A stretch of 64,000 bases of DNA from positions 7,846,798-7,910,797 of the forward strand of contig JASSKH010000025.1 in NCBI GenBank assembly GCA_031763025.1, in the 5' to 3' direction. The notes beneath the pieces are model-generated. The model had not been told where the DNA came from and did not search any database. It saw only the letters and a program-made list of their open reading frames with translations. Each line of letters begins with the position of its first letter. Position 1 is the first letter of the stretch. Below are positions 22,279-63,862 of the stretch, one piece after another. This DNA is from Macrocystis pyrifera. Lineage: Eukaryota > Sar > Phaeophyceae > Laminariales > Laminariaceae. The position numbers and the translations under genes were made by a program.

Positions 22279-22282
22279 TACT

Positions 22283-27386: not shown

Positions 27387-27561
27387 GATGATGTTGATGC
27401 TGATGCTGTAGTCGGGGCTTGATTGTTATTTGTTTTTGGAAACAATTCCTCCGCAATGGAGAAAGTGAGATCTTTTCTTGAGCTTCTTGGAAGAACTTGA
27501 CGAACTCAGCGGGACGTCGAAGCGTGGTGCCAGTCGATGCGTTGCAGGTAGACTAGAAGTC

Positions 27562-27574
27562 GAGGCTCATAACC
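27562..27574 (-). promoter_or_regulatory. Primer-binding site, probably half-tRNA (initiator Met type)
   Basis: Directly after the 5' LTR, the element strand reads GGTTATGAGCC. Its complement, GGCTCATAACC, looks like the anticodon loop of initiator tRNA-Met (CAT anticodon). Drosophila copia is known to prime from an internal fragment of initiator tRNA-Met. That this element does the same is inferred. Confidence 0.55.
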
Positions 27575-27968
27575 TGAAGGAATGATGCGTGTCGAGGCTC
27601 TGTCTTCTATGAGAAGAGATGCAGAGGCGGCACCGAAGTGTCTGTGAAGATCACTTGTGATGAAGAAAAGAGAATGTTTGGAAAAGGCGCTTATGTGACC
27701 AAATGTCGAAAGAAAGAAGAGTGAGCGAGGTGGGGCATGCCATCACCTGATCACGAGACAATGCCCATGCTACGGGCAGGTGTATTCTACAGCAGCCCGT
27801 CAAGGTTCCCTGAACCGTTCCTAGCAATGTCCCTGCAACGTTCTGCATAGCAAACTCGTAACGTTCTATGCAACGTTACCTGATACATATGGTGGTAAGC
27901 TAGGCTACCCTGTATTACGATCAGTATGATAAAGGTAAGTTGAATACAGTGCGTCGGCAAGAAGGAAC
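27575..27968 (-). mobile_element. 5' LTR of the minus-strand copia element
   Basis: Partner of 21885-22278. On the element strand it starts TGTTCCTTCTTGCC and ends TTCCTTCA, next to GGTTATGAGCC, a likely primer-binding site. Gag starts about 190 bp further on. Confidence 0.88.
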
Positions 27969-28085
27969 AAACTCAAGTCTCGCCGCATATCGTATTTCTC
28001 CGCATCTATCATAAGATGCATAGTATGCTGGTATGAAGTGACTGCACATCAACATAGATATGGATCTCAACGTCCATATTTCAAT

Positions 28086-29146: not shown

Positions 29147-29204
29147 GGCCTCCAAAATCTGAACCATGTTTTTGTTTTCTTTAGGGTGTACCAGTGTGTG
29201 TGTG

Positions 29205-29730
29205 TGTGTTCTTCACATTAAACCGTTCTTCTACTCGTCGACATCCAGCAAGCCCAGTGTCCGTGCTGATTCTTCACCCTAGAAAGATACGAGCTCTGTG
29301 GTCACAGACTACGACACAGAGATAACACACCGTAATGCATTAATAGCCTACGCAATACCATGCCTTCGCACTAGGTGCGGCCGACACAACATACATACAT
29401 ACGCCAGCAACCAAAATACACCATAAAGAAAGAAAAGCAACGAAGAAACCAAACCGAAAAAGAACAAGAAAAGAAAAAGAAAAGGAGAAGAATCCCAAAT
29501 AAATAAATAAAATGGGAAGCCAAAGCTCAGACACATACATACTTACCCCGAGCATGAGCCAAAAGGGACGTGCAAGGGGAAAGATACGAGAAGGAAAAAG
29601 GGGACTATGCATCCCGGTGAAGACTTAACTAAGTAAAAAGAGCAATAGTGAATGGGCCAAAATACGCTCGTCACCCACCCACTATGTAGTACTTCTGTCA
29701 TACGGATAAGAAGGGAAAAAAATCAAAATG
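29205..29730 (-). repeat. Right arm of a 0.5-kb inverted repeat pair
   Basis: The reverse complement of 17733-18255 with small length changes in the T-rich part. The two arms are about 11 kb apart and could be the ends of one compound element or two independent insertions in opposite orientation. Confidence 0.85.
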
Positions 29731-39837: not shown

Positions 39838-41135
39838 TCCGGTACCGCGGTAATGAGATCGCAGTATCGAGAACTCGACACGGGATGTCCGTTGTGCATA
39901 CATGGTGGAGCTTGAAGGTTAGCAGCATCAGGAAAACGAGGAACATAGGCGGTGTACCTCGTCGTATTTCTGGGTCGTGGTGTTACTTGTATTGTGTCTT
40001 CGTGTGTAGTGCCAGGTAGGGCCCTTGGCCTGAGCTCTCATCGAGTCGGCCGCTTGACGCCTGCTCGTTGGTCGGATTGGTATAATATTACGTTGTACCT
40101 GGTATGAATGAACTACAATATGCTGTTGCCCCGACAGTCCAGTGGAGAATATCGCAATGAAATACTTGACACGATACGTTTTGTGTATGTAGTGAAGCAT
40201 ATATATGAAAATGCAGAGCTATCCAGCTCTTTATCACACGACAAGAGTTGTCACACCGTGGACGTTTGTTTGTCGATAAATCGACTGACCATCCAACAGA
40301 CACCCTGCTGCAGCTCTGAGCCGCATGTTGTCGCGTGTAGCATGTGGTGATATACACGTTTACGTTCATGTCGAGTCAAACTTGCCGTTCTTTCAATCAC
40401 CATGTTGCCTTTATGTTTTGAAACACGATGTCGCGGCTCTAATCTGCCGCGGGTTGCTCTATTTCATTATCTCCTCGCAGCACCTTCAACACTCCGTAAG
40501 GGGTTTTTCATTGGTTGTCGAGTTGCCGAACTATTGACGGGGCAGTAGGTCTATTGCTGGCGATTTTTGGAGATATTACGTTGTCGTGTCGAAGGCCTAT
40601 TGTTCCAACTATTTTCCTGTTGTTCTCCGTTCCTTAACCCCAGCGGTGACGGTAGTAGTCGGCTTCCTTACTTCAGCTTCCAGATATTCAATATAGCGAA
40701 CAACCTGGCCACACCTGAGGTACAGACAGAAAGGAAGCGCATCCTGGTGTGCCTCAGATTGGTCCTACGATCGATCGTGAACATTTTTCAGCGGTGGTTG
40801 ATCAAGTGGACCTCAAACCGACAGCAGGGCCATCACTTGAATCGCGTAGCGGTGGCCGACGTCATTCAGAGGAGAAATCCCTTTCCTCAATGTATCTCCC
40901 ATCCGTCTTGCCCCGCTGCGCACCACACCCAAATGTGACACAGCAGGCGCGCTTGGACGAAGATTAGTTCTGGCGAAATCTGACCCATACAAAAGGGGAA
41001 TGATGAAGCGATTCCCCTGGAGGAGGAGCAAGAACAATGGCTACCAGCTCCACGTGGGGGACGACGAGATGGAGATCTGTCTTGGAGAGAAGACTGTGTG
41101 GAGGGATACAACTGACGAGATGATGAGATGATGGG
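39838..41135 (+). pseudogene. Left tandem copy, 3' remnant (exons 4 and 6)
   Basis: Homologous to the 3' part of the 47.0-54.3 kb gene. Exon 4 survives as GGTACCGCGGTAATGAGATC onward near 39840, but its donor GTGAGTATGC has become GTTGTGCATA. Exon 6 starts after CGACAGCAG at about 40830 (GHHLNRVAVADVIQRR), then frameshifts and meets a stop. The end (SDPYKRGMMKRFPWRR-like, then TGTVWRDTTDEMM-like) is still readable. About 1 kb containing exon 5 is absent: sequence jumps from the match to 52.75 kb straight to the match to 53.77 kb. Exons 1-3 are not found upstream. Confidence 0.8.
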
Positions 41136-42536
41136 ATGAACCCATGTATATTTCAGAGTGTCGTGTACTATACGTGGTGTGTTGTGCATGGCACGGTACG
41201 GGGTGGGGAGGAGAGGTCCACCGCAGGCGAACGTGCAGCGGCTACATGTCGTAAAGGTGTTCGTAGAACATCGGATCCGATACCACAAATATTATAGTTT
41301 TGTTTAGAGCACTGAAGATCTACAATACGGTAGTGTCGAGTCTCTACTTCTCTCTTGGAAGGCAGGGTCTCACCGTCTAAAACTAGTTTGGGTGGCCTCG
41401 CCCCGAGAGATGACATATGAGGGGCAGGACTGTTCCGCTGGTCTATCAGCTCGCAAAGCGGTCCGCGTACCACGTCAGTCAGTTGATTCTCAAACGGCAT
41501 CGTCGGTAGCCCTGTGCTAACCGTACGGTACGCGTTTCCAGTACAAACGTAGATTGAAGCAAGTTGGTAGTTCCGGGTTGGCTTCCTATCTCTTTTGGAC
41601 CAGATATGTGTAGCTCACGACTGCACCTAGACTAAATACCTAAATTTTCAGGAGTCGGGCGGGGTTATTGTGATGAATAGTGGGGGCTGGCAGTGTGTTC
41701 ATTACGGTGTGCAAGATTAGTGTGCAATAGTACAGGGCAACCTCTTCAAGAGGCATGCTGTGATAGGGCACGTCTGCGGCGATATATCTTCTGAATGTGT
41801 GGCCTCATTAGCAAAGAGTAACTACCCAATACGCCATGCCTTGCCACATCGTTGTATACCTACCTTAAGCCATGAGAATATTAATCAGAACTTTATGCTT
41901 GAACGATTTTCCCACAAAGACGTTTTTTGAGTGAAGAGGTTTAGGATGTAAGGTAAAGAGTTCCTTAAGCAAGGAGTCTCAGAAACAATATATATCCCTA
42001 CCCTCTTACGGCTACCGTAGCACGCGTCTGAAGATCATCTCGGCCAACGTTGCCGTCAACTGCATCCATTGATGGCTCCACACTCGGTAGTGCACGGTAT
42101 TACCGCAGGCCGATCCTCGGCAGTGAATTCTTACTCGGGGTTGCCTACAGTAGTCACTCGTCCAATAATCACCTCAAATCGATCGTACCCCCTGTTGATG
42201 ACGGGCCCCCGCTTATGCTCTCCAACGCGCACGTCGCGGTCATCGAGTCAACCGAAGAACAGAACATTTGATGATCCACCACATACAAGCTTGTCCCCTT
42301 GTATCGCACGTAGCCCTTGCTTACACCTGTGGTTGTTGAGCGGGTTCGTACCGCACCAGTCTCCTGCTGTGCTTCCCTCCGCGCATCGCTCCACGGCTAT
42401 CGTTTCCCTCCGGAGAAGCAACGCCCAGCTGCAACGAGCTTGTCCCCTGCATCGTTCGCTCTTTCGTCGTGTCCGCCTATCTACCGGGACTACGAAAGCT
42501 ATCTCTAACATGCTGGCGGTTTTTTGTCTCACTCTC

Positions 42537-42601
42537 TGTCTGTCTGTCTGTCTGTCTGACTGCCTGTCTGTTCAGTCTGTCTGTATCTATGTCTGTATAT
42601 A

Positions 42602-42686
<85 letters not shown>

Positions 42687-42700
42687 GTCTGTATCTATGT
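42537..42700. repeat. (CTGT)n microsatellite, unit 1
   Basis: About 160 bp of CTGT repeats with a few interruptions. Open frames on both strands (Ser-Val-Cys-Leu; Arg-Gln-Thr-Asp) are artefacts of the repeat. Confidence 0.95.
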
Positions 42701-43387
42701 CTGTCTTCAGGTATGAATGTCTGTCCGTATGTGCTGATGAGGACGATGATGTTTTTCCAGTAGCTCACATCCCTGAAATCCTCCCTGTGGTCACCAAACA
42801 AGCTGTAACCAAACAGCATTTCGATCGGAAGAAACAAAGACGTACGAAATAGTGCGGAAGGCAGTACCAGTACCTAAAGGAAACGGTACTAATAAGCTGA
42901 GGTATACCATCCCGTATCCGGTGCAACCAAATAACATCAGGAACATATCCATGGTATTTTAAGTACACCCAAAAGAAAAGGAACAAATACACTCGAAGAG
43001 GGGTAAAAATGCTAAACAGGAGGAATGAAAGAAAGGAAGATAGAAAGGAAAAAAAATGAAATAAAACCGAAGCAAACATGCGCTCAGGGCGCCCGAAGAC
43101 AAGGTTGCAGTTTGCTGGTACGATCAGTCCTATGACGTGTCCAGCTGATGGGCCAATATAAGAACGCCACAAGAAGACCAGATGCAAGGCAATATCCCAA
43201 GAAACGAAAAACGAGCAGTCCTATGTCCAGCTGGTGCGTCAAGGACAACACAACAGACACTAAGAGGACAGAGACAGAGGGACCAAGGGGAGAAAAATGA
43301 AACGTCAAGAAAATCGGAGGGAAAAAGAAAAAGGAAAAATAGAAAAGGCACTCAACTATAGTGGTAAGGTGACGCAGCCGACGCAGG

Positions 43388-43427
43388 TGGGTTAGGGTTA
43401 GGGTTAGGGTTTGGGTTAGGTTAGGGT
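43388..43427. repeat. Interstitial telomere-type repeat (TTAGGG)
   Basis: About six tandem, slightly imperfect GGGTTA units: GGGTTAGGGTTAGGGTTAGG, then a GGGTTTGGG variant and GGTTAGGG. TTAGGG is, to my knowledge, the telomere motif reported for brown algae. An ACCCAAACCCTAACCC block recurs at about 48646-48662. Confidence 0.85.
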
Positions 43428-43520
43428 CCCATGGTATGCCATGGGGGTCCGTGGAAGGTTCCGTGGTATACCGTGGAAGATCCCGTGGAAGGTGGTGCCA
43501 CGGCATGCCACGGCATGTCG
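43428..43520. repeat. CCATGG/CCGTGG motif cluster, short
   Basis: CCATGG, CCATGGG, CCGTGG and GCCACGGCATGCCACGG recur about every 10 bp directly after the telomere-type repeat. The pattern is the same as in 47905-48870. Confidence 0.65.
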
Positions 43521-44254
43521 CGAAAAAAGACCATAATGTACATCCCCGCCTCGGGCTTCAGGCGTTCGTCGTTTTGCTATATGACCCTTCCCCTTAACGA
43601 AACAGCGTTTCATGTGTTGCTCTGCCGCTTCGTCAACCCGCCTGAACCGTTTGCCTAATTCGTCGCTGCTAGCGTCCACTGTTTCTCTCCGTTGGGCAAG
43701 TTAAACAGCGACAAGCCGTGGTCGGGACAACCCACCCAGTCCTGCGCTTGCCCTCCCAAGTAGCCCTTTCCCCTCTCCAGTTCCCCAAAACGTCACTCGT
43801 TTGTCCACCTGCCCGTTCGTATGGCCGTATGTCCGTCTGTAGGTATTTCTGTCTATCCACACGGAAGCACGATCCAATAGTCGATTGCGCTGCGGCGAGA
43901 TGGCAAGTCTTCAAGCAGCAGCACTAGAAGCAACCAGAAAAAAAGCAGAAAAAAAACAGAAGTATCAGCAGCAACAGAGGCGACAGCAGCCCAACCAGCA
44001 GTAGATAACAGCAGCAGTAGCAGTCGACAATCCCGAAGCATTCCCCGAGCCACCTACGAAACGCGAGCAGTCCTGCTTGCTTTGCATTTGGAAACACAAA
44101 CCGCGCATTCTAGTGGCCAATTACTAATTACATCCATTGTCTAAATCCCTGCCAGAGTCGGCTTGCTCTATCCAGAAGTTGGGTACGGAACGGGGATTAT
44201 TCCAGCGATAGAGCCAGTATGGGCGAGAGCCACAGTGTCCTATCCCCTAATTAT

Positions 44255-44910
44255 TGATCCTTCCATACGATGTACAACTCAACTCCAACCAACCCGGGAC
44301 TAAATCGGCACCCCACCGAGTCGACACCGTCCCACACCGAGTTGAAGCCCCAACGTCGTTGGACGATTGCTGGCTGGGGTTGGTGGAGCCAGCGCCACCC
44401 GACGGGCAGGATACGGTATCATCTCCATATAAGAACTACTTCCATACATCTACAACTCCAAACTGCCGGGTACGAAAATCGTTATCCCTGTGGAGATACC
44501 GCTCCGCACGATGTGGAAACCCCAACCCGACTGGTTCATCGCTGATTGGCTGGGATTCGTGGGGTCATCGCCACCCGGGGAGGACAATGTCCCCTCCACG
44601 CATCGCAACCCGTTCTATACATCTGCAACTCCCCTATACCGGGGACAAAAGCGGTCATATCTCAGATCGCCACCGCCCGGCACGATGTGGAAAACCCCAA
44701 TTCCACTGGATGATTTATGATGTGATTGGCTCGGGTTCGTGAGCCAGTGCCACCCAGGGAGGATACGGTCCCATACCCGGGTCCTATGTTCTCTAATATA
44801 TCTACAACTCTATCTAATCGGGGACAAAAACGGTGTGGTCCCCCAGGTCGACACCGCCCCGCACAGTGTGGAAACGTCAACTCCGGGTACACAATTACTG
44901 GCCAGGTTTC
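44255..44910. repeat. Roughly 170-180-bp tandem satellite, about four copies
   Basis: The anchor CATACATCTACAACTC (variants) recurs at about 44267, 44445, 44615 and 44797. Between anchors each unit has GGGACAAAAACGGT-like, CACCGCCCCGCAC...GTGTGGAAACCCCAA-like and GATTGGCTGGGATTCGTGG-like segments, in that order. The same satellite is at 56400-56890. Confidence 0.8.
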
Positions 44911-46550: not shown

Positions 46551-47034
46551 GACGCTACGATGATGACCAAAGGACTCAGTGAGCATTGCCATATTCAGTA
46601 CATCCAGCGGTGTGTGCCGTAGCGAACGAAGGGTACCCCATGATGTGCCCCTCGCTCTCCCTCTCTCTCCCTACCGTGTCGGCGGACATTTGTTGGCATC
46701 AAGAAATTGTATTTTGATAGGTGCTGTCCGTTTGCAGAGCTTCAAGACTCAAGAAATTGTTTCGAGAAGTTTATTGCCGGAAAAAAGGAGATCTTGACGT
46801 TTGTTTCGTGTATGCGGGTTTGATGTATGCGGTCCCCTTCTTTACGGCTGGATCTCATGCCGCCCCATGCGTCGTATTACCTCTGGGTGATTCGTGCCCA
46901 GCTTCCGTTGCTGCATAGCATTCTGCCCTTGCCCACACACACGCACGAGCTGCACTAGCCCACCTAGGATCAAGCACCCCTTTCCCTCCGAAGTCCTATC
47001 AAAGCGAGAGGCACCCTGTTCATCTTCTCTGGAG

Positions 47035-50000
47035 ATGTCGACGAAGACGATTGCCAAGGCCGCCCTTTTCTCGGCAGTCATGATCGCCGCCCTCAGCGGT
47101 GCCTCTGGCGCTGAGGCCCAAACGAGTCCATGTGACGATGACTTCCCAGGCACGGAGGGATGCAGGGCCAAGCGCAACTCTCTCTCCTCCGAGGAAGGGG
47201 GTGTTGCTTTGCCACGGACCATGACGGTCCTCAAGAGAATCACGTACGACGAGCCCACGGTGAGCGGTGTCTGGTTCGATTGTTATATTAGAGTGCTCCT
47301 TTTCTACAGTAGCAGCCTTTCTGATCTCCTTGCGTCGTTTATTCATATATGTTTCTTTTCATATTCCTTTGCATTGTCTTTTGTTCCTATTTTCCGGCCT
47401 TGCTTGTGTCGTTGTGTTCTCGTACCCGGTACGCTGGCATTTCACTTCTTGCTTGACCTATGAACTTTGCGGGGTTTGGTTTTTTGGTCTTCTTCCTCCG
47501 TCTTACAATCTGTGACCACAGAGTTGGTATCTCTCTAGGATAAGGAATCAGGACGGACACGTGGTGTAATGATGAAGCTCGGTAGAAAAGACAATTTATT
47601 GTGAAGACAATGCACACACATGCATCGTCGCGGTCACCTTTCCACATGCACGTACATAAGCATGTACAGCCAGCCACCGCTGCCTCGTTGGATGGGACTG
47701 CGGTTGCTCGTTCTTGTTGTTGTTGTTAATGGTCTCGCATTGCCAGCGAACAGCAGCTAGCTCATGAATACACACAAGGACTCCACCCACACGTATAGGC
47801 ACCAAATAAAACAAAACCACAGCTCGATAGGGGTCAGGTCAGTGTACTGCTGTAGCCCCGCGAATGGATGTATAGCTGCTCAACACTGATTGGACAGATC
47901 AGGGCGCACGCCATGGACCCAACCATGGATAACGGTTCACCATATTGTTTGTTCCACGGTTCAACCCCTGGACAAACCGTACCCCATGATATGGGCCTTG
48001 ATACAGCCCATATGGGTCCATGGTGTGTACCATGGACTGATATTTGAATGGCTTGCGGTCCAGTCCATCGTGAACCATGGAGTACGTTATGGTTGATTCC
48101 GTGGTGCCTGACGATACCATCGTGGATATTTCGTCCATGATTCGACCCACAAACATAATACGTCGGTGATATATGGTCACTCATGGCGCGTTCCACAAAA
48201 AACCGCCATGATATTTCCTATGGTTGGCCCCTTGATACATGTACCATGGTACACGCTCGGACACGAACCCGTCCATCGGGTGCACTATGGTATTTGTTCA
48301 TGCTCATCATATTCACGGGACGCCCCAAGGAAGGTCCCATGGATCGTTCTTGGGGACACACTGTGTGTGCTGTCCCTGATTGCCCCGTGGCACGTGCCAT
48401 CGAGACCCTTGATAAGATGCCCAATGCAAAGCCCATGGGCACTCCTTGAGCCCTCGGCACTCCATGTTATATGCGCACTAAACCATAGCATATACCACGG
48501 CCTTCCATGTTGTCTGCTGTAAAGTAGCGCACGTCATGGAAAACATCACGGTGTGTCGTAAAGCGTAGACCATGGCGTAACCCAAGGATATGGTAGAAGG
48601 CATGGTGCGTCCAGTGGGGCGTCTCCATGGTGAACGACTGTCCCCAACCCAAACCCTAACCCAATAATGGGGCATTTCGTGGTGTGTTCCATGGTAAAAC
48701 TATGGCACCGACCATGGGTCAGTCCGTGGGGTTTACCACATGGCGCACTTATCCGTGGCGTACCCCATGCGTTCATGTAAGAAATACCAGACTACTCCTT
48801 GAAATATGCCATGAGTCGGTGTCCGTGGGTTGTTTCGCGGTTTACCGTCGAATATACCATGGTTAACCATGGTCTGGGTCGTGGGCTATCCAAGGGACTT
48901 CGATTATTCCAGAAGGCCGTCAGATGGTGTATATGACCTGTCCTGTTGTTGTTGTACCCGGCCACATGCTTCCTCTCCTCTTGCGCCCTTCCGATACTGT
49001 ACAGTTGTTCGACTTGGAGGAGGATTTTGTGATAGAATCAAAGGAGACCATCTACAGCACCAACCTGCACTTTCACGTGCACAAGGGAGTCACGCTCACC
49101 TTCCGCGCGCCTGCCATCAAGATCGCCAGAGATGAGGTGATGCGACGCGTCACACACGCTGACAGTCCGTGCCAGCTATTACGGGGGTCCACAGTTAACG
49201 GGACCAAATTTTGGTAGTAATAATAGGTAAATATATATGTTTTTATGTATACCATAGGTCCTATTAACTATGGACCCCCGTAATAACAAGAACAGCTGTT
49301 TAGCTTTAGAGTTATTTATGGCTGCTTTTACCATTCTGATGAAAGTTGCCGAAGGAGGATCTTCAAACCCTTCTCGGCCCGATGGTATGGCACTGCTGTA
49401 TAAATGTGAAGTAGTACCAGGTACTCGTAAACTGTTGTAGTCTGGCAAAGGTATTAATCGAGGAATTCACGTTCCACGACCATCCACCAAGAGTTTTTTG
49501 GGGTTTTTTTGGTTCCTTTCCTCTCGTCCGTTCTTTTTGTTTTGCTTTGCTTCACATTTTTCTTTCTCTCTTCATTTCTTTATATTAATTTCGATATCCC
49601 CCTATCCTGATAGATTTCTGCCTTGCTGTGACTTGTGAGTGCGGCCTCATACACGTATACAAATTTCGTTTGGATTGTATTGTCTACGGTGGTATCGTCA
49701 CTACATCTTGCGACACATTGTATCAGGCTGGTACAGTAGTTTGCGACCACAAAGCTAGTTGCGGGTAACTCTTTGGGATGAAGATCCAACCCAAACACCA
49801 CGGCTGTATGTACTGCTGTAGATGTGCTCGATTTGGACGCATGGAGAGAACGGATTAAACATAAAGAACACGCACAAAGATACCACGGGGCATACCGCGG
49901 ATGACACACTACCGCTACTGGAATAATAACAGATATACAGCAGCACGAACATACACTATGAGAACAGGTAACGTAAGGATGCACACTGTAATGCTTCTAC

Positions 50001-53000
50001 ATGCACGGCACTTGGGCCAGAGTCGACCAAGGGAAGAAGGGAGTGACGTCTTCTGGCAATTCAAATCAGAGGCACGTACCGTAGCGGGGAAGACGGAGAG
50101 AGAAAACAAGGGCGAAGATAATAGTAAATAGGAAAAAACAAACAAACGAACAAACAAGCAGACAAACGGTGGATATATTTGAAGTACAAATTGGAACCAC
50201 ATCTCTCTGCTGTGCTGAAGTTATTGTACGAGGACCCACCCTACCTGCCACACAATACTACGGCACTGCAGTTCTAGCCTGACCCTAATGAAGAGTCCCT
50301 TCAATGGCGCCGCTTCGTGTGCGGTTCGAAAAATGTGTATTCGAGTCGGGCACTGAAATCCATAGATAAAGCACACAGCAAATTCGACAACATGAATGCC
50401 ATCACAGGCGACTCCATCATTAAGCTGAAGAAGATCGTAGTAAGACGTATGATACTCTTTTCGTGAAAGCACATGCTGCGACATCGACCCAGCCAGGCTT
50501 GTCGGTCCCGCCATTGTATTCAAGGAAGGCCTGTCGCTTTGCACCAAAAGCCTCCATGTGGGGTTATTGGTCACGTTGGGTCGTCGGACGTTGCCTTTAG
50601 TCCAACCACACATGACTCAATAACAAATGTACCGTTCAATTTAAAAATCGTCTACAGGGCACCAGGCATCCACTACTACTGTACAATTTTTGTCAAAGTG
50701 GTCAAGGGAGGGGGGTAATATTTCCGTTATTACGTATACTATTGATACAGTAGTAGCGCGTGAGGCTATCAGTGTGTACGTACAGCAGGGCAGACACATG
50801 AAAAACACATCGCTGTAGCGCACCCTTCCTTGTTGGGCAGATGGACTAAAGTTTGTCGCCCACCTCCACGGTTCCTCCCAACGGCAGGATTCATATTTGC
50901 CTCTCTTCGAATTGTCGGGAACGGTCAAATTCGAGGCTGTCGGTTCAGCTCCGCCCCTGCTTGGTGGCAGTCTGGTGAGTTCCATGTCGTGCTCGTGCTC
51001 AACCAGCTGCAGCGTAGTATGTACGTGGTTCTCCTGCGTTCATGAATTATGGTTGCATTTCTCGATCTTCAGTAGCTTCAACGAATTTTTCCATTTCGTC
51101 AATGAAACGTAGCCTCATTGGATCAGTCCGAAAGAATACCACTGCACAGTACAGTTGCAATCTCGAATCACCTCAACAGATTTGTTCCTTTTGTGAATGG
51201 AATATCTGCATTGAACCACTGAGAATACCGGGCTTTAACTTCACTGGCAGGAGAAGTATCGATATGTCTTTCTTTCTGTGGTTCTACAGTACTATAGCCG
51301 GTTTTGGGGTAAGTTAGAGTATCTTCTTGCCGCGATGTGGCACTGAACCGTGAACACACAGTTAACGATGCTCCTAGCCTCTAATACGTCGACAACATCA
51401 CAAAGTACTTCTCCCACTATTACGGGAGACCATAGTAAATGGGGCCACATTTTGTTAGTAAAAATAGGGAAATATATTGGTTTTGTGTGCTATTTTCTAT
51501 GGTCCTCCGTAATAGAGGCGTTCTACATTAGAGACTCACCCAATAATTTTCTGAGGCTCCTCACTTAAAAATTGATTTCAGCAAAACTCAAGTTGCATCC
51601 CGATGAATAATCCCATTGCTCAAGTATAAAAAAACGCCATCTTTCGAAACAAGCTTGGCATTCCGGTTCAGAAAGTCCGTCATTCAGAAAACATTTTGGG
51701 GGAAATGTGCTACCTCTATGGTAGAACGCGTCGCTACTGCACCTTCCCGGCGCACGACTCGTTCATTACGTTACAGAGGTACTCGGCCAGGCAAGATACT
51801 GCAATCCATATGTTTGATCGGTCCGTAGGCACGACCATGAATAACGCGTTTGTTATTATTTCTTAAATACTACGCGTGCTTGATGGCCGCGCGCAGGTGG
51901 ACGAGGGGGGGCTTCTTGAAGTGTGGGATGATAGCGCGGTGTTCATGTCTGGTCTACATTACGTTGTCCGGTACCACGGCAATGAGATCACAGTATCGAG
52001 GACGCAAGACACCGGAGGCCCGGTGAGTATGCATGATGGAGCTTTGAGGGGATAGCAACACAACGAAGATGAGGAGCCGGCGAAGTGTATACCGGCCGGA
52101 TTTCTGGGTGGTGGTGTTGCTTGTATTGCGGCTTTGGGTATGGTGCTAAGTATGGCCCTTGCTCTGAGCTCTCATGGAGTCGGCAGGATGACGGCTGCTT
52201 GTGGTTCGTATTGGTATCATATTGTGTTGTTAGAATGGACTGCAGTGTGTTGTTGCCCCGACGGTTTGGTGGAAAATATCGCAGTCCAACACTTGACACA
52301 GTATGCTGCGAAGAAATATATGGAAATGGAGAGTTGCCCAGATCTCTATCAAAAGACTAGTCACACCCTGGACGGCTGTCGATTAATCCACTTACCTTCA
52401 AAAAGACACCCTGCTGCGTCACTGCACTACATTTTGTTGCCTGTAGCATGTGGCGATAGACACGTTTAAGTTCGTTCGTCGTAGAACTTGCCACTCTTTC
52501 AATCACTCTGTTGCCGTTATGAGTTCAACCTCGATATCGCGGCTGCAATCTACTGCGGTCACGTTGCTCTATTTCAATATCTCCTCGCAGCACCAGCAAC
52601 ACTATGTGTAGTTTATTTTTATGTATTGATTGCCAAGTTTCCGAACTATTGTCAACGCAGTAGGTCTGTTACTGGCAATTTCCAGGCATGTTTCGCTGTC
52701 GTGTCAATGGCCCTTTGTTCCAACTATTTCTCCGTGTTTTCCGTTCCACAATAGTGCCATGACATGAATCATGCCGTTCGCTGATCGCTTGTAAAGTACC
52801 CTTCAACACACACAGACGATTGTCCAGTGCAGGATGTTATTCTAGTAAGTTGCCCCGCCGAAGGGCGTCTGCGATCACTTCGTTGTCGTATTAACACGAT
52901 ATTTGCATACCGAAATACATGCCAATACCTGATCGTCTAAAACTACTCTGGGTAAGCATCTATCCAGCGTTCACTCCAAAGGAAGACCACCCGTTATTGA

Positions 53001-54282
53001 GGCCAACTGCTGACTATACCGCCCTTCCTAGCTAACCGCTCACCCGTGTTCGCCCACACCTGTCCCGCTGTACATGATGTACGTGCACTGCCCTAACATA
53101 CAGGGTGGTGTACACGACAGAGATGCTGAGCCCGACCAGACTGCGTCGACGAACGAGCCGCCCACCCCAGCCGCTAGAGACCTGAATCCCTCGGTTTGGA
53201 GCCCTAAGCACGTGCTCACTGCGGGCGACAAGCTGACTGCTGAACCCTTGGTAGCGTCGACTGGCACGTCCGCCGTATGGGCCACCAAACACGGAGATAT
53301 CGTCTTCGCCATGGAAACTGCGAAATCGTCGGATGTATCAGGCCAGGAAACCTCCGGAAGCCTGCACACGTCTGTATTAGTTGCTGCCGACATCGCTAAA
53401 CTGAGGCGCGTGGTACGAGCCCGACAGGCTCTTCTGAAGGAATTGCAGGAGGGGGACTTGCCGGCCCACGAGAGCGGGAGGAGGAGTGCTTGGGGGTGGG
53501 TCCCCTTCCGCAGTCGACACCAGAAGGACGTAGATAGGGCGCGGAAACATCTCGGGGAAGTTGAGATGTCACTCAGCGACAGGGGATGCGTGGTGAGTCA
53601 GCCAGTAGTTGCCCCTTTGGTGTTTTGGGTATATAAACGACGACCGAGAGAGAATAGTAGTAGGGCTAACGTGCGTGTTTCATACACTACCAGAGGTAAT
53701 CTTGTTGTCCCCTTGCTTCGAAAAGGTAGTGGTGGATAGTTCACAGTATGAGTTTACGTCTGATAGCCATTCCGGTGACGGTGGTTAGAGGTTTCCTTCC
53801 TGCAGATGCAAAACCATTAAATAAATCGAACACTGCTGGAGTGAAGCCAAGAGTCTGACCACACTTGAGTTGCCGACAAAACAGAATTGAATCATGTTGT
53901 GCCTGAGATTAATACCACTATAGATCTTGATATTTTTCCGCAATGCTTTGATGAGTGTGTGTCGAAACGACAACAGGGCCATCGCTTGAACCGCATAGCG
54001 GTGGCCGACGTCATTCAGAGGAGGGGATCCCTTGCTTCACTTTACCTCGAACCCGTATTGCCTCGCCGAACTCCACACCGAACCGTCACCAAGGAGGTGA
54101 GCTTGGACGGAACATGCGTTCTGGCGAAATCCGGCCCATACAAAAGGGAGTGGATGAACCGATTTCCCTGGAGAAGGAGCAAGAGCAACGACTACCAGCT
54201 TCACGTGAAGGACGATGGAATGGAAGTCCGTCTAGGGGAGAGGATGGTGTGGGGGGTTACCGCTGACGAGATGATGGGATAA
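47035..54282 (+). CDS. Middle tandem gene: secreted protein of unknown family, six exons
   Basis: Exons: 47035-47259, 49005-49136, 50888-50974, 51897-52022, 53104-53592 and 53977-54282. The total is 1365 bp, 454 codons plus TAA. All five introns are phase 0 with GT/AG ends, mostly GTGAGN donors. Exon 1 gives a signal peptide (MSTKTIAKAALFSAVMIAAL, small residues before AEAQ) and two cysteines (SPCDDDFPGTEGC). Exons 2-4 are short, strand-like and alternate hydrophobic residues (STNLHFHVHKGVTLTFRAP; LFELSGTVKFEAVGSAP; VVRYHGNEITVS). Exon 5 has a Pro/Thr linker, LTAGDKLTAEPLVASTGTSA and a helical basic segment (LRRVVRARQALLKELQ). Exon 6 ends DYQLHVKDDGMEVRLGERMV. I do not recognise the family. 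Exons 2-4 could be a beta-sandwich or beta-helix, and exons 5-6 have a faint bulb-lectin look. Conservation of exons 1-4 in the right copy supports the model; exon 5 has no second copy here. Confidence 0.75.
47507..47624 (+). mobile_element. Single terminal repeat of the GTGACCACAGAG family, intron 1
   Basis: CTGTGACCACAGAGTTGGTATC, CTAGGATAAGGAATC and AATTTATTGTGAAGAC align with the ends of the element at 18141-19492. No inverted partner is seen nearby, so it is a solo or decayed copy. Confidence 0.5.
47905..48870. repeat. CCATGG-rich region, about 1 kb
   Basis: CCATGG and one-mismatch relatives (CCGTGG, CCATGA, TCATGG, CTATGG) recur every 10-25 bp for about 950 bp in intron 1 of the middle gene, without a fixed repeat unit. 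An ACCCAAACCCTAACCC block lies inside at about 48646-48662. It is not coding. Confidence 0.7.
49189..49283. mobile_element. MITE with TTACGGGGGTCC ends, copy 1 (intron 2)
   Basis: The ends TTACGGGGGTCCACAGTTAA and TTAACTATGGACCCCCGTAA are inverted repeats of about 27 bp around an AT-rich centre. TA flanks both sides, fitting a TA target duplication as made by Tc1/mariner-type transposases. Confidence 0.8.
49738..49878 (+). mobile_element. Terminal repeat of the GTGACCACAGAG family, intron 2
   Basis: TTGCGACCACAAAGCTAG, CTCTTTGGGATGAAGATCCA and CGGATTAAACATAAAGAACAC align with the family ends. An inverted partner is not obvious. It lies in intron 2 of the middle gene. Confidence 0.45.
51420..51512. 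mobile_element. MITE with TTACGG ends, copy 2 (intron 3)
   Basis: A diverged copy: TTACGGGAGACCATAGTAAA at the left and CTATGGTCCTCCGTAA at the right, again flanked by TA on both sides. It lies in intron 3 of the middle gene. Confidence 0.7.
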
Positions 54283-55379
54283 GCCCAATCATAGTTTACA
54301 GTGTGATGGAGTCTGCCCGGTGTGTTGTGTATGATTCGGTACGGGGCCGGGGGGGGGGTCAACCGCAGGTGAACGTACAGCAGCTGTATATCGTAGGAGG
54401 TTCGTATAACATCGGAACTGACACTTGGAATAGTGGTGGAGTGCGAAACATTGAGGTGGGGAGGCGGAGCTATTGTTTCATTGAGTGATGGGTGCTCACA
54501 ATGTGCAATTAGGTGCGAAACGCCAGTGTCCTTTACCCCCTTAATAAGCACGCTACCATAGGGGTGGCACGTCTTTGGCGAAATCATTTCTGACTGAGTT
54601 GGCTCCAAAGCCGAGAAGATCTACCCAAAAATGCCTGCCTGTCGTTGTATACCTGTTGTAGGTCATGGAATTATTCATCAGGTTTTTGTGGTTGAATGGT
54701 GTTCCCTCAAAATTCTGATTTTGGGAGAGGAGGTTTCTTGGGCGTGAGGTAGAGAGCTCCTTAAGCGAGGAATCTCATAAAAAAATTGAGTTGCTACCCC
54801 TATATCGCTACCGTAGCCCGTATCTGGAAAATATCGGCCAACGTTATTTCCAACTGCATCTGTTGATAATGCCTACCTCCGTAGTCACGGCATTTCGCAG
54901 GCGGATCATCGGCAGTGTATTCGTGGCGTGGAACGTTCTCCGAGTTGGGTTGGCTTTCACTAATCACTCCACTGATGGTCACCTGTAACCGGTCGTCTCT
55001 CCTGTCGATCACGGGCCCCCGTGTGCGCATTGCATAGCGCATGTCGTGGTAAGCGAGCCAACCGAACAAGCCAAATCACTGATGGTCCACCACAAAACAC
55101 ATACTTAACCCCGCATACCCCGTACGGCACTTGGTTGCGCTTGTGGCTGCGGAGAGGGTTCGTACCGAGCCAATCTCCTGCGACATCGTGTCCTATTCAC
55201 CTCGCTCCTTGGCTCTTCGCAAGAAACATAATGTTTCGTGCGGAGAAGCAACATCCAGCTGCGGTAGGCCTCCCCCCTGCATCGCTCGCTCTTGCGTCAT
55301 GCCCGCCCATCTACTGAGACTGCTTAACGTAAATATTTAATGTTGGTATAGTACGTATGTCTCTCCATCTGTTCTTTGC

Positions 55380-56035
<656 letters not shown>

Positions 56036-56399
56036 GGTTTTGATCCAGAGCGCTTCAGCCCCGCCTTGCCCAATAGGTACAGATACTGGGTTACATTGCC
56101 AGTGCAATACCGGGTCCCATGTCCCGCCGAGTCCTGGCCGTCGGGCGCAGAGCATTGCCGACAACCTCGAGGAGTCGCTTAAGCCAGCCATAAAAAGCCA
56201 GCTTTGCTGCTGCCTTACATTTGAAATACAAGCCGGATATCCTAGTGGTGGATTGCTATACTTCCTATTGCCTAAGTCCCTGCCAGGGGCGACTGGTGGT
56301 TTCTAGAAACTCGGTACGGAACAGGTAATATCCCAGCTATAGAGCCAGCATGAGACAGAGCCGCTCGGGGATGACAGGGTGCCATCCTCGGATCATGTT

Positions 56400-56890
56400 T
56401 ACTTTCATACACATACAGCTCAAACCCGGGACGAAAATTGGCGCCCCCCCTGGTCGATACCACCTTGCATGGAGTAGAAACCCCAAACCTACTGATTGAC
56501 TGGGTTTGGTAGAGCCAGCGCCACCCGGCGAGTAGGATAACGTTCCATTAATAAATAAGAAATACTTCCATACATCTACAACCCCAACACACCGGTGACG
56601 AAAACGGTTTTCCTCGCGTGAATATCGACCCGCACAGAGTGAAAACGCTAAACCTCCTGGCTCCTGGCTGACGGGCTGGGATCCGTGGGGTCACCGGCAC
56701 TAAGGGAGGGAAATGTCCCATCCCAGGATCAGTAACCCTTCCATACATCTGACGCTCCCACATACCGGAGACGAAAACGGTGATCTCCCGGATCGCTATC
56801 ACCCCGCAAGGTGTGGAAACCGTGGTCCCACTGGCTGATTGCCTTATTGGCTGGGGTTCGTGGAACCTGTGCTTCCCATGGAGGATACGG
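56400..56890. repeat. Roughly 170-bp tandem satellite, unit 2
   Basis: The anchor CATACATCTACAAC (variants) occurs at about 56407, 56567 and 56742, with the same internal segments as 44255-44910. The last repeat is split by the fold-back element at 56891. Confidence 0.78.
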
Positions 56891-57568
56891 CACCGGTGTT
56901 GCACTGCCCATAAAAAAATCCTGATATTGCCAAAACTCCTGACAACAAAGACACTGGAATCACGTCTGCCGCCGTTTTTTTTCTGAGGACTTTTCGTTTG
57001 TCTGCTTTAGCTTCGAGCGTGTCCATCGAGCAAATTTGTCAGGGCAGATATGAGCTCCTTGATGCACTCCCGCGAGTGTGCTGAAGCGATAACACTTTTC
57101 GTGTCCTCCTTCGGGGCGGACTTCGTCGATGAATTTGAAAATGTGGTTCCAGGCGCTTGAATTTTCGGTTTCTTGTACTTCAGTTGAGTTTTTTCTTTTC
57201 TGCTTTGAGAACGAGAAGGATGAACCCAGAAAACCAGTGAGTACGTTTCTCCTGCTCGTTCCACGCCAGAAAAACAAATACGTGGCTACAAGTACAAGAA
57301 ACCGAAAATTCAAGCGCCTGGAACCACATTTTCAAGCTTCAGCGACGAGGTCTGCCCCGAAGGAGTACTCGAAAAGTGCTGTCGGTTTGGCACACTCACG
57401 GGAGTGCATCAAGGAGCTCATACACGCCCTGTCAAACTTTGGCTTGATGGAAACGCTCGGAGCTAGAGCAGACAAACGAAAAGTCCTCAGGAAAAAACGG
57501 CGGCAGCCGTGATTCCAGTGTTTTTGTGGGACTTTTTTGGGGGTTTTTTAGGCAGTGCAACACAGGTG
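56891..57568. mobile_element. Fold-back transposon with 18-bp TIR and ACGG target duplication
   Basis: The ends CACCGGTGTTGCACTGCC and GGCAGTGCAACACAGGTG match as inverted repeats at 17 of 18 positions. ACGG stands on both sides (56887-56890, 57569-57572). The matching place in unit 1 (about 44760) reads GATACGGTCCCATA with a single ACGG, an intact pre-insertion site. Inside are two long inverted arms (about 56945-57180 and 57285-57525) around a loop of roughly 100 bp. Each arm, read outward, encodes a similar peptide (AHSRECIKEL, ADKRKVLRKK). No transposase fits in 678 bp. Confidence 0.85.
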
Positions 57569-57804
57569 ACGGTCCCATAGACGCGGATAAATCGCAGACG
57601 AAAAAGGTGGTGCGCTGGTTGACGCGGTCCCGCACGGTGTGGACACCTCAACTCCGCGTACACCATTGCTGGCTGGGATCCGTGAATCCGGCAGCTCTAG
57701 AGTTGCACCGCGCCTGGCTGAGAACCGGGTACCCTGTGGCGGATACCCGGAATCTTCGGAACCGGAACCGTTCCGGTCCAACTCACGGAATCGCGGGCAT
57801 TTGT

Positions 57805-57836
57805 ACCTCGGGTACCCGGGTACCCGGGTACCCGTC
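57805..57836. repeat. Palindromic GGGTACCC array, short
   Basis: Four overlapping GGGTACCC units make a self-complementary block (TCGGGTACCCGGGTACCCGG and on). It precedes the larger array at 58160-58500. Confidence 0.85.
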
Positions 57837-58159
57837 AATTGTTCTATACGGACGCCCCAAGACTGGGGTATACCTTGATTCATACATCAACTGCAGCAGC
57901 AGCTGTGCCCCTAGACTCTCGCCTCCCGCCCCTGCAGACTACAGACTGACAATAGAGAATACCCCTACCTGCGTTCGCACAACACGCTACACAAGAGTAC
58001 ACAGACGCACACGATACCCCTACCACAGCGTAGGTGGGCCTACTTTACCATGAACCACAGAAGATAGACCAATCCCGAGAAGTCCCAACCTTTCGATGTT
58101 CCTGTTCGTGGAGAGACCGATGTGATTGCGGCACTGAGATCGACCACCACATAAATAGT

Positions 58160-58500
58160 GTATATGGTAACCCGGGTACCCGGGTACCCGTGTCCGCCTT
58201 ACCATGCCACCGCTCAAACGCAAACAGGGGAGCAAATTGTATATGGTAACCCGGGCACCCGGGTACCCGTTTCCGCCTTACCGCGCCACCGCTCAAAAGC
58301 AAAGTAAGGGAGCAAATAGTGTATGGTAAACCGGGTACCCGGGTGCCCGGGTACCCGTGCCCCACTCAAAGCCTAAAAGGGGAGAAAATAATGTCTGATA
58401 ACCAGGGTACCCGGGTATCCGTGTCCGCCGGAGCCCCGGGTACCCGGTTCCGGTTCCGACTGGACCGCCCCCAACTCGGTCGGGTACCCGGTTCCAAATT
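58160..58500. repeat. About 80-bp minisatellite with ACCCGGGTACCC cores
   Basis: Four units, each TATGGTAA, then one to three overlapping ACCCGGGT palindromes, then GT(G/T)TCCGCCTTACC, a CACCGCTCAAA segment and GGGAGCAAAT. Cores start near 58170, 58249, 58330 and 58403. The palindromes can form GC-rich cruciforms. Confidence 0.85.
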
Positions 58501-58701
58501 TTGAGGTCGGGATGCAACTCTAGGCAGCTCCCACCCTTGAGGAAAAACAAGTTCAGCAAGTCTATGAACCCTTGTCTACTGTAGCCGACATTTTGCGTAG
58601 TGTAGTTGCGTATTCAAGATGGATCATCACCTTCGCCTCTAATTTCTTAGATTGTATACGACGTGGAGTAGGGACAGCAGTACGCGCGGTACCAGTAGTT
58701 G

Positions 58702-58806
58702 TTACGGGGGTCCATAGTTAATAGGACCAATGGTACACACAAAAACCTGTATATTTACCTATTTTTACCAGCAAACTTTGGTCCCATTAACTATGGACCC
58801 CCGTAA
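58702..58806. mobile_element. MITE with TTACGGGGGTCC ends, copy 3
   Basis: 105 bp with nearly perfect inverted ends (TTACGGGGGTCCATAGTTAA and TTAACTATGGACCCCCGTAA). The corresponding place in unit 1 (about 45118, CGTTACGTACTG) lacks it, so it inserted after the tandem duplication. The left TA flank is not preserved. Confidence 0.82.
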
Positions 58807-59617
58807 TACGTATTTTACATCGGCAGATACAGAAGGTAACCTTGTTGTAGGTGCTGTAGGTACTACGTTCAGCAGTAGACACAATAGTGGATGGAGAAAG
58901 TACATATGCACACGCGAGCATCAGCTGATGTACGTACACACGAAGCCGTAGCCACACTGCAATTATAGCAACGCAGGGCTAGCGCCACGGGCAAAATCGC
59001 GCCGCACCGCCATTCAACAGAAAAAAATCCCTGGGTACGAGTAATCGTTCATGATTGGGTACGGGGTGATGACATGGGATGTCTATTGTCGACAGAGAAG
59101 TTGGCCGTCTGCATTATTCTGCTACAGTAGTATACTATTGCTGCAGTACGTGGTAGCTATTTAGTAGCCAGCAGCAGGTGTTGACGCCACGATGACCGAA
59201 AGGCTCTGCTACAAACATACCGCAGGAAGCCAATGATGCTCTACGAGTACGCAGTCCCTCTCTCTCTCTCCCGCTGCCGGTGGTACATTCGTTTCTTCAA
59301 GAAAATGCTGTGATGGGTGCTGTACAGCTTAAAGAGTCAAGAAATTGATTGATAAAATTCGTTTTCTGAAATGAGAGAGCTCTCGACGCGATGCCTGATG
59401 TATGCTGTCACCTCTTTACGGATAAACCCAATGCAGCCCCATCGGCCATGTCCATGTGCTCTCAGCTTCCGTTCCCAAACGCCCATAGCCCTCTGCCCCT
59501 GCCCACACACACGCGCGCTGCGCTAGCCGGCACCTTTGGAAGCACACGCCCTCTTTTCCTCCTCCTGTCTAGCCAAAGCAAGAGGCGCCCGCCTGCATCT
59601 ATCCTCTGGAGGTATCC

Positions 59618-62600
59618 ATGATGAAGAATTTCGCCAAGGCTGCCCTCCTCTCCGCGACTATGCTCGCCGCCCTGAACGGTACCTCTGGTGCCCAGACGCA
59701 AAGGGGCCCATGTGAGGATGATGCTCCAGGCATGGAGGGATGCGGCAACAAGGGCAGCTCTGCCTCCTCCGACAAGGGAGGGGGTGCTACTACTAAAGCG
59801 CCACGGACCATGAGGGTCTTAAATACTATCGTGTACGACCAGGCTACGGTGAGCGGTGGTTACTCTGAGTGATAGTATTGGCACGCACCTGGCAGCATCC
59901 CACCAGCACACGCGGCCGCCGTTGCCTCGTCGGTTCGACTGCAGTGTTGTCCTTGTATTCTTGTTCTTGATGGTCCCACAACTCAGTACTGCACACAGGA
60001 CGCTACACAGTAATGAGAAACAGGATTGATGGTCAGGGGTAGATGGCTTATTTGAGGATGGGTGCATTCTACTGCTGCTGCAACTCCGCTGCCTTTCTTG
60101 TTGTTGTTTTATATTAGGAGAAGGCGCCCTGTACATTTTATAAATTTTGAAATACGTCAGCTGCATTTATAGCGCTCATTGCCTGCCCGCCGATGGTGAC
60201 GAAAAAACGCAAGGAACCCACAGCCAAACCTAAACTCAGTTTGGGTCAGTATCAACTGCTGTGGGTCCATGAATCAATGTATAGTAGCGGAAGGGCACCG
60301 GATGCGATGCAAACCTGTCCTGCTCGACCCTCCTCCCCTCGTGCGCTCTGCAGTTCCTCGACGTCAACGAGGACATGGTGTTCCTGTCGGACACGACCAT
60401 CGACAGCACGAATCTGCACTTCACCGTGCGCGCGGGAGCCACGCTTACCTTCCGCGCGCCAGCCATCAAGATCGCACGGGATGAGGTAATAAGTCGACGC
60501 AAATATGATCGCTGACTTGTCGTGACCGCGAGCAACAAACAGCTGCTATGAGTTTTAGCACTACTGCTACTGCAGAAATAGAGGAAATTGATCACAGGGA
60601 GATTTACTGTTCGTTCTATGACTGCGAGTATCCTCCATGAATACCTTTTCTTTCCTTTCGTTCTGTCTGCCACTACAGCGCAGTGTGATTCCTTTGATAA
60701 CGCTTTATTTTTTTCTGTACAATAGTATACTCGTATAGACTATACGTACAGTTACAGCAGTACAGTACTTCATTGTCTTCCTCTCCTTGCCACTTCTCTG
60801 GTTTGCTGTGGCTGGCTTGTGTGTTGCGCTTGGCGTGTAAAATGTTGCTTGTTCATCTGTGTAAAACGTTATCTGTTTTTTCTACGGTAGTCTCCTCGCT
60901 ACACATTGTGGCAATTTGTGTACGTCTCGTAGTATGTGACCACAGAGCTTGTATGCATCACAGGTACATCTCTGGGATGAAGAAACAGTTCGGACACTGC
61001 AGTACAGTAGTCATAGGTTTGCTGGATGTCGATGGGGGGAAAGGGCGGTTTACTGAAGAAGGACACACATAGGGCTACCACAGGCCAAGCCGTGCATATT
61101 ACATTACTATCAATACTAGACACCCGTACAGCAGCACGAGTACAGACTATGAGAACGGGTATACGCACGTTAGTATGGTACAGCGGTGGTGAGAGCAGTA
61201 GGTGCGGGTGCTACAGCAGTGTGTGTGCTCTTCATAATAAACCGTTATTTCTATCCGTCGACACCCAGCACAGCCAGTGTCCGTGCCGATTCTCCAATCC
61301 CAGAGAGATGCCTGTGCAAGCTCTGTGGTCACAACAATACGACACATAGAGAGAGATATATATGACATGGCTATGCATGTTGTAGGCAGATTATTATGGA
61401 CAATGCACTGCCGCAGTGTCATATCATCGTACAGGATACGACAGGCATGACATCATACTCTATGAAAGAGAAATATATATATACGTACTGTTTCCCTCTT
61501 CAACTACAGCAGTATTGCGATTGACGGCCACAGGCCTTCCTTATAAAAGGAAGGCCATTTATACCTCGTATCACTAAGCAACAGTAAGTATGTACTGCGG
61601 TTGGCAGGAGATATCGAGCAACTATTTTGTATCGCGCAATGTAACGGTGTATTTAGCTCTCTATGCACCTTAAGAGCACTTGTACTATAACACTGTTCGG
61701 CACTGTACCTCGCCACGACATCGACAGGGGGGGGCAGGTGTTAGGTGTGCGTACGAGCATTTGGTCCGCAATGATCTGAATCTCATCCTTTTAAATACAG
61801 GTTACGTACTGTGTCACGTCGAGGAAAACCATTTTGCGTTGTAGCTGGGATTTGGATAAAGGAAGCTCGACGTACGGTATACAGTTACAGCTGTACAGCA
61901 GAATGCGGGGGGGCACTACGGAAAAGTGGAGTTCAGGAATGTTGGCTTGATGTTGTATGAAACTAAAAATATATACCTGGTAGGTTGCTGCTGAAATGCG
62001 TACCCACCTTTCCTGCCATAATGTTGACTTTGGCCCGGCCGAAATTACGAATTTCTTGATTGGCGTCGCGTTATGTGTGGCTATGAATTGCGTACCCACC
62101 TTTCCTGCCATGTGACTTTGGCCCGGCCGAAATCAGGAATTTCTTGATTGCCGTCGCGTCATGCATGGCTATAACACGAATGTTCGAATTGGACCCTAAT
62201 AGCCACGGACAACGCAAACAGCAAAATTCAACAAAATTATTCCTACGAAAGAAGACTTTAGCACCATTCCGAACCTATCGTAAGGCGTGCTCCGCCGGTC
62301 AAACGCATGCCGTCACATTAACTCACGCTTGCCCGCCGCTATTACGTGCTTGTTTTATAGATTCCCGTCATATAGCGCCGACCCCTCCTCCATAGAGATG
62401 CAGCAGTGCCCGCAGTTGTTTCGGCGGGGCGTTGATTTCGGTCCAACCACGTCACACGCGCACAGCTATTCTCCACATGAGCCCAACCAAGTCGACTACG
62501 CCCACTTGGTGCACGTCACGCAGGCACTCAGGACTTTCACTCCGAATGTGTGTGTTTGTGTGAGCGTATTTTTTCTTCGCGTTTAATCGTTCTTTCCACC

Positions 62601-63862
62601 GATCGACATCCAGCAATTTCAGTGTCCGTGCTGATGCTTCACCCAAGATACATGCAAGCTCTGTGGCCACGAACTACGAAACACGGCTAATACATCGCAA
62701 AATGTAGTAGAAACCGTAGGCAATACAATGTCAGTGTGCTGGATCCAAAAGACAGAAGATACGCAAGCCATCAAAGTAGACACTACGAGCAGGAACACCA
62801 CTTTGTGATTCCATCTCACCAGTTCGAGTATCACTACGTACGACGCGATCGAAGCAGCGTACCTTATCATGCAAGTGATACCAGGGGGTAGAGAATAGCT
62901 GTTGGGGTAGATAAATCAACGTTTGCCGCCCACCCCCCCACACCCCGACTCCTCCTAACGGCAGACTTCCGTGTTGCCTCTGTTCGAGTTATCCGGCACG
63001 GTGAAGTTCGAGGCCGTCGGTTCGGCTCCGGTGCTGCTTGATGGCAATCTTGTGAGTCCCACGTCGGTCTTATTCTGGCTTAGATTAAAGCTACTGCTGC
63101 ATGTACGTGTATTTTCCCTTCGTGAGCGAAAGGCTGCAGCGTTGCATCACTCTACGGTATAGCCTTGCCCCCTGGTTCGCGGATAGGTTGTGGACTGACT
63201 GACAGATGCGGTGTCAATGTTTTTGCTTTTCGTTGTGGTGATATTGCTATTCCTATTATTTTTTTGTGAAGTTTCGCGTTCTCCCTATACGCTGCAGTAC
63301 AGGACGGCGTCCTTAGCATACTCTCGGTGTGTATCATCGTAACCACCATCGCGCGCAGCATGCATAGTACTCCTACAACACTACATTGTCGGTGCCAGGC
63401 TTGTCGGAGGGGAGGCGAGTAGGTCAGTAAAACACTATATCACTAACTAACACAACCATACCGTTTTGACTCATTACAAGAATAGTGGCAATGAGGAGCA
63501 TGGCAGTTGCTCCTATAAATATTCGGTCAAGCTCATGACAGATGCTCCAAAATGGTCAAGCTACTGACTGAATTATGCTACCGCGTCGGTGGTTCTTCTA
63601 CTGGACGTGCATGTTGCACGTGTTGAGCTTGGTCAGTTACGGACATCTGTCACGCTCCCACCATTCTTGTGTGCAGTGTGCCACACCTCTATAGTGCCCC
63701 CACCTTAGGCCTTTCATGCCTGGTGGCCCCGTGCAGGTGGACGAGGCGGGGCTTGTGCAGGTGGATGATCACAATGCTATATTCTTTTCCGATCGAGACA
63801 ACGTCGTCCGCTATCATGCTAGCGGAGTCACGGTGTCGAGGATGGACGACACGGAAAGCCTT
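59618..63862 (+). CDS. Right tandem gene, exons 1-4 (rest off the window)
   Basis: Exons: 59618-59848, 60354-60485, 62965-63051 and 63737-63862. Lengths of exons 2-4 (132, 87, 126 bp) and all phases equal those of the middle gene; exon 1 is two codons longer. Exon 1 has a signal peptide (MMKNFAKAALLSATMLAALN) and the same cysteine pair (GPCEDDAPGMEGC). By hand count exon 2 matches the middle copy at 30 of 44 residues, exon 3 at 24 of 29 and exon 4 at 21 of 42. Exon 4 ends with GTGAGTATGC, as in the middle copy. Exons 5 and 6 are expected beyond 64000. There is no stop or frameshift in the visible part, so it is probably a working gene that has diverged from its neighbour. Confidence 0.75.
60928..61345. 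mobile_element. MITE of the GTGACCACAGAG family (paired ends), intron 2
   Basis: The left end 60928-61072 (TATGTGACCACAGAGCTTG ... GGTTTACTGAAGAAGGACAC) and right end 61208-61345 (GTGTGCTCTTCATAATAAACC ... CTCTGTGGTCACAACA) are inverted copies about 135 bp long around a 135-bp centre. It lies in intron 2 of the right tandem gene. Confidence 0.65.
61997..62170. repeat. 92-bp tandem duplication
   Basis: TGCGTACCCACCTTTCCTGC starts at 61997 and 62089. Each unit contains GACTTTGGCCCGGCCGAAAT, ATTTCTTGATTG, CGTCGCGT and GGCTAT. The second copy has a short deletion after CTGCCAT. Confidence 0.9.
62568..62690 (-). mobile_element. Solo terminal repeat of the GTGACCACAGAG family
   Basis: CTTCGCGTTTAATCGTTC, GATCGACATCCAGCAA, CAGTGTCCGTGCTGATGC and GCTCTGTGGCCACGAAC follow the family end in reverse orientation. 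It lies in intron 2 of the right tandem gene. Confidence 0.55.

Follow-up and report, generated by a model that had tools for sequence, protein, structure and literature searches.

Tandem copies of a probably secreted protein family with shared phase-0 exons in Macrocystis pyrifera

Two neighbouring genes in the DNA analysed here (a stretch of 64,000 nucleotides, hereafter the window) are tandem duplicates that share four exons in the same order and phase, and purifying selection guards these exons taken together. Part of a third, broken unit (copy 0), which the preliminary description had missed, lies upstream of both. The reading that we prefer for the locus, a tandem family of at least three units, the two better-kept of which encode secreted proteins that would bind a ligand in the extracellular matrix or on the surface, has in our estimate an even chance of being right as a whole; the description of the family is held with moderate confidence and the proposed role with low confidence.

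Results

Gene A and gene B share exons 1–4

Gene A spans 47035–54282, with exon 6 tentative, and gene B spans 59618–63862 within the window, its remainder presumably lying past the window end. The modelled features are as follows.

39838..44902, + strand: broken copy 0, from blastn, with relics of exon 4 (3' part) and exon 6, the beginning of intron 4, a TCTG repeat and flanking sequence downstream
46658..47034, + strand: upstream region of gene A, paired with 59255–59617 of gene B
47035..47259, + strand: gene A exon 1 (75 codons), with a Cys pair and a start resembling a signal peptide; A-type relative P0004, 55/76
49005..49136, + strand: gene A exon 2 (44 codons), phase 0; relative P0006, 40/44
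50888..50974, + strand: gene A exon 3 (29 codons), phase 0; tblastn against gene B and codon comparison
51897..52022, + strand: gene A exon 4 (42 codons), phase 0; relative P0007, 36/42
53104..53592, + strand: gene A exon 5 (163 codons), left border doubtful; 78% / 66% identity to P0001 / P0002
53977..54282, + strand: gene A candidate exon 6 (101 codons plus stop), tentative; open frame
59255..59617, + strand: upstream region of gene B, paired with 46658–47034 of gene A
59618..59848, + strand: gene B exon 1 (77 codons); B-type relative P0003, 69/80
60354..60485, + strand: gene B exon 2; tblastn match to gene A exon 2
62965..63051, + strand: gene B exon 3; tblastn match to gene A exon 3
63737..63862, + strand: gene B exon 4; tblastn match to gene A exon 4; relative P0008, 33/42

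The exons of gene A measure 225, 132, 87, 126, 489 and 306 bp, all in phase 0. Because the window ends, the comparison with gene B is limited to exons 1–4, which measure 225/231, 132, 87 and 126 bp in A/B with phase 0 at the common introns. These lengths, from which two neighbouring related genes had been proposed, were recovered on recomputation, and tblastn of gene A exons 1–4 against gene B gave E-values of 6e-23, 7e-16, 4e-11 and 1e-9, far above chance similarity. The claimed phase-0 architecture also held, as all eight modelled introns (five in A and three in B, 384–2479 bp) were of the GT..AG type and in phase 0, each with between 7 and 31 in-frame stops. In a blastn self-comparison of the window (E ≤ 1e-4), 46658–47269 paired with 59255–59858 (68.6% over 646 columns that include exon 1), and the A–B matches comprised exons 1, 2 and 4 with their near flanks and ~380 bases 5' of exon 1. 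The similarity of exon 3 was picked up by tblastn only, not by blastn, and no extended matching stretch was found between the introns of A and B at this threshold. The pairing of exons and of upstream sequence bears out the tandem family of the preliminary description.

The common exons are under purifying selection

Over 189 aligned codons, A and B differed by 45, 37 and 76 changes at codon positions 1, 2 and 3 (p = 0.0003); the overall dN/dS (Nei-Gojobori, 189 codons) was 0.37 and the synonymous distance 0.71. Reading-frame constraint between the copies, whose absence had been named as the case against these genes, is therefore present, and we conclude that purifying selection guards the part common to A and B, exons 1–4 taken together. 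For exons 1–4 singly, dN/dS was 0.55, 0.45, 0.17 and 0.21, with widely overlapping bootstrap ranges of pN/pS (0.41–0.99, 0.27–1.19, 0.06–0.67 and 0.25–0.69), and codon-position bias (p = 0.28, 0.11, 0.018 and 0.064) fell below 0.05 in exon 3 alone.

It had further been proposed that different parts evolve at different rates, from identities of 24/29 residues in exon 3 and 21/42 in exon 4. Both counts were exact on recount and the identities do differ (Fisher p = 0.006 for this pair, which was chosen after the fact; across all four exons the difference is weak, p = 0.03), but dN/dS stands at 0.17 vs 0.21. Silent change is also greater in exon 4 (pS 0.65, against 0.52 for exon 3), and its lower identity therefore does not establish that the two exons are unequally constrained.

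Tandem duplication, divergence of the copies and symmetrical exons would also suit a secreted defence or pathogen-response protein diversifying by duplication, as proposed for shuffled LRR/TPR receptors of brown algae. However, no sign of diversifying selection was seen, dN/dS being at most 0.55 in every exon, though with broad intervals in exons 1 and 2. Unlike LRR/TPR immune-receptor genes with their arrays of equal-length repeat exons, A and B have no repeat-type exons, and Pfam showed no LRR, TPR, ROC or NB-ARC domain in A exons 1–5 (353 aa), B exons 1–4 (192 aa) or the exon 6 frame. The ROCO (LRR-ROC-COR) genes of brown algae, as described in PMC11378527, likewise have many symmetrical exons and a changing copy number, but their LRR exons are 72 bp long, in phase 2 and under diversifying selection, whereas A and B have unique exons of several lengths in phase 0, a dN/dS of 0.37 and, in our scans, no LRR or GTPase domain. 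We consider a defence protein of this kind quite improbable, and retain the matrix or surface binding protein as the preferred reading.

A-type and B-type relatives occur outside the window

Protein searches returned eight relatives: two proteins at E ≤ 1 among 7217 candidates with gene A exons 1–5 (353 residues; P0001 and P0002), three of 215 candidates with the exon 1 pair (P0003, P0004 and P0005) and three of 52 candidates with the exons 2–4 pair (P0006, P0007 and P0008). In exon 1, P0003 matched B at 69/80 residues and P0004 matched A at 55/76, and P0005 was nearly equidistant from the two genes (40/75 and 39/75). The exon-1 tree of these five rows (A, B, P0003, P0004 and P0005) joined B with P0003 (96/98) and A with P0004 (90/87). 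Gene A exon 2 agreed with P0006 at 40/44 residues, and exon 4 agreed at 36/42 between gene A and P0007 and at 33/42 between gene B and P0008. Separate A and B types are seen among the relatives, and the tree indicates that both exist elsewhere than in the window. The relatives may be orthologues in another species or further copies of the same genome; if orthologous, they would make the A/B duplication older than the species split. All eight look like mechanical single-exon predictions that run into an intron. No relatives were found in viral_contigs (probed with exon 5, exon 1 and exons 2–4) or in genome_contigs (probed with exon 5 and exon 1), and since these are virus and prokaryote collections, respectively, the two nulls say little.

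The hydrophobic start of exon 1 suggests secretion

A hydrophobic core of 11 residues (mean hydropathy 2.1–2.9) was present in all five exon-1 sequences. This fits the signal peptide of the preliminary description and stops short of proof of secretion; judged from this start of exon 1, the products of the family are probably secreted. Beyond the N-terminus, the gene A model has no 19-residue stretch with a mean hydropathy above 0.9, and no N-glycosylation sequon occurs in the 454-residue model. The Cys pair described earlier was kept in four of the five exon-1 sequences, with its spacing one residue shorter in P0005, but its second Cys is absent from P0004.

Exon 5 is coding, and its join to exon 4 is insecure

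Exon 5 codes for protein, as indicated by two conserved outside relatives: identity is 78% to P0001 and 66% to P0002, and the match reaches the end of the exon. Past the common block both relatives go on with 'VS', the residues encoded by the GTGAGT donor. Before it stand ~135 residues in P0001 and ~170 in P0002 (44% mutual identity over 145 columns), for which no match was found within the window (best E 1.5), and the acceptor at 53103 of gene A is common to none of the relatives found. Because P0001 and P0002 carry a front part that is absent from the window, the exon 4–5 join and the 454-residue product are insecure. The earlier six-exon, 454-residue model was reproduced for gene A, but the left border of its exon 5 is doubtful and exon 6 is weakly supported. 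Compared with the broken copy, exon 6 had 63/304 changed sites vs 75/264 in the flanks (p = 0.04), and its changes (18/19/26 at the codon positions) gave no clear frame signal, which is expected where one partner would be a pseudogene and gives no support either. Structure prediction of exon 5 and of exon 6, each on its own, gave poor models (mean pLDDT 45.5 and 39.7). A kinase-like or PH-like reading of exons 5–6, made by eye, was dropped, as there was no match of any kind.

Exons 1–4 and exons 5–6 might instead belong to two genes, one for a short secreted protein and one for a P0001/P0002-type protein whose front part has been lost here. The unmatched front parts of P0001 and P0002 point in this direction, as does the search with gene A exons 1–5, which returned no protein with exon 4 and exon 5 joined. 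However, a GTGAGT donor closes exon 4 in A as well as in B and leads one to expect another exon downstream, and the phase 0 of the exon 4 end fits exon 5. Moreover, the 'VS' read-through suggests that P0001 and P0002 are mechanical predictions on intron-bearing DNA, in which case their start codons prove little. Two genes seem to us rather unlikely, and a single gene A running from exon 1 into exon 5 is preferred.

Copy 0 is collinear with gene A and lacks exon 5

Copy 0 (39838–44902) is collinear with 51967–57673 in five blastn pieces of 68–76% identity, corresponding points lying 12.1–12.8 kb apart. The match begins inside exon 4, and exons 1–3 were not detected in copy 0 by tblastn or blastn. 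Small gaps break the reading frame of its relics, a two-base gap in exon 4 and two single-base gaps plus an eight-base insertion in exon 6. The intron-4 distance between A and copy 0 was 0.29 (171/713 sites) against the A–B synonymous distance of 0.71, and the copy 0/A split is thus probably younger than that of A and B. TCTG microsatellites stand at corresponding places in copy 0 (42535–42706, ~170 bases) and gene A (55381–56030, ~650 bases); given these matching places, the repeat was probably carried by the duplication and changed in length afterwards.

Exon 5 is missing from copy 0: the stretch ~52748–53773 of A is absent, with the junction near 40633–40645. The ends of this stretch match at 6/7 positions by eye, which fits deletion with filler and insertion with target duplication equally well. 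Exon shuffling, which the preliminary description thought eased by phase-0 exons, was not adopted, since A and B agree in exon order and phase, and deletion explains the absence of exon 5 from copy 0 equally well. A new-fold secreted family might also gain and lose exon 5, its C-terminal module, as a phase-0 cassette, alone or together with a Ser/Thr-rich front part. This would cover the absence of the module in copy 0, its short form in A and its long form in P0001/P0002; we find it more doubtful still than a defence protein.

Gene A might itself be decaying, with the front of exon 5 and the true acceptor lost and no full protein made, and with B possibly intact. The missing front of exon 5 would agree with decay, as would the broken state of its nearest copy, copy 0. 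On the other hand, exons 1–4 of gene A are without stop or frameshift, exon 5 sits in a frame that is open for 235 codons, and exons 2 and 4 keep 40/44 and 36/42 residues in common with relatives. Decay of gene A is unlikely on this evidence.

Fold and possible role

Sequence searches of Pfam, NCBIfam, PADLOC and PDB gave no significant match for the family, in agreement with the earlier failure to name it. The best insignificant matches were those of P0002 in NCBIfam (E 0.06) and P0001 in Pfam (E 0.076), with a best E of 0.29 in the PDB, and for A and B Pfam returned nothing up to E 10 save DUF7447 in B (E 0.09, under its cut-off). To the eye, exons 2–4 have a beta-rich look that we take to resemble beta-helix rungs. 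Short hydrophobic strands alternate in them with Gly/Asp/Asn turns, as in right-handed beta-helix and chlamydial POMP-like proteins, but A and B differ in being without Pfam support for such a fold, and no beta-helix (pectin-lyase-like) profile matched in the Pfam and NCBIfam scans. The lack of a named relative in the searches made is shared with taxonomically restricted (orphan) genes of brown algae, as characterised in PMC6374913.

In the preferred reading, two or more rounds of duplication would have produced a tandem array of no fewer than three related units, the A/B duplication being the older and that of copy 0/A the younger, to go by the distances. An N-terminal signal peptide would direct the products of A and B into the secretory pathway. 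Exons 2–4 would form a beta-rich domain under purifying selection, followed in gene A by a charged C-terminal region from exon 5 and perhaps exon 6. The site of action of such a product would most likely be extracellular, either within the matrix or on the surface, where it would bind a matrix polysaccharide or another surface ligand, and the paralogues may have been retained for dosage or for slightly different ligands.

It is common for such genes to be duplicated in tandem and lost. What the locus adds is a family of probably exported proteins, unnamed by the searches made, in which purifying selection acts on two types of paralogue and a broken copy can be compared with the two better-kept genes. 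Its value lies in a testable fold and in the question whether the C-terminal module moves between copies.

Other sequence in the window

The window contains introns, ~50% G+C and fragments of copia-type gag and an AAA-type ATPase, and reads as eukaryotic nuclear DNA; Rfam (gathering scores) and a tRNA scan found nothing in it. The style of its genes would suit an alga-like stramenopile, perhaps a brown alga. An imperfect inverted-repeat element at 49177–49287, 51417–51489 and 58698–58808 (82–89% alike), with a partial further match at 19269–19320, looks like a small inverted-repeat transposon; two of its copies sit within gene A, in introns 2 and 3. A dispersed repeat of ~110–170 bases occurs in at least six places (18135–18250, 19379–19503, 29194–29362, 47509–47622, 61219–61350 and 62558–62730), three of which fall within introns of A or B. 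Between A and B lies an imperfect palindrome of ~700 bases (56888–57571, 79% self-complementary). The copia-type gag (25188–27425, minus strand) lies within 21885–27992, flanked by direct repeats of ~420 bases (21885–22303 and 27575–27992, 97% alike) that are perhaps LTRs; the same interval holds a 475-base direct repeat (22761–23235 and 24859–25333, 99% alike). The AAA ATPase fragment (2717–3070, minus strand) had first seemed BCS1-like, but AFG2 and CDC48 outrank BCS1 among its PDB matches.
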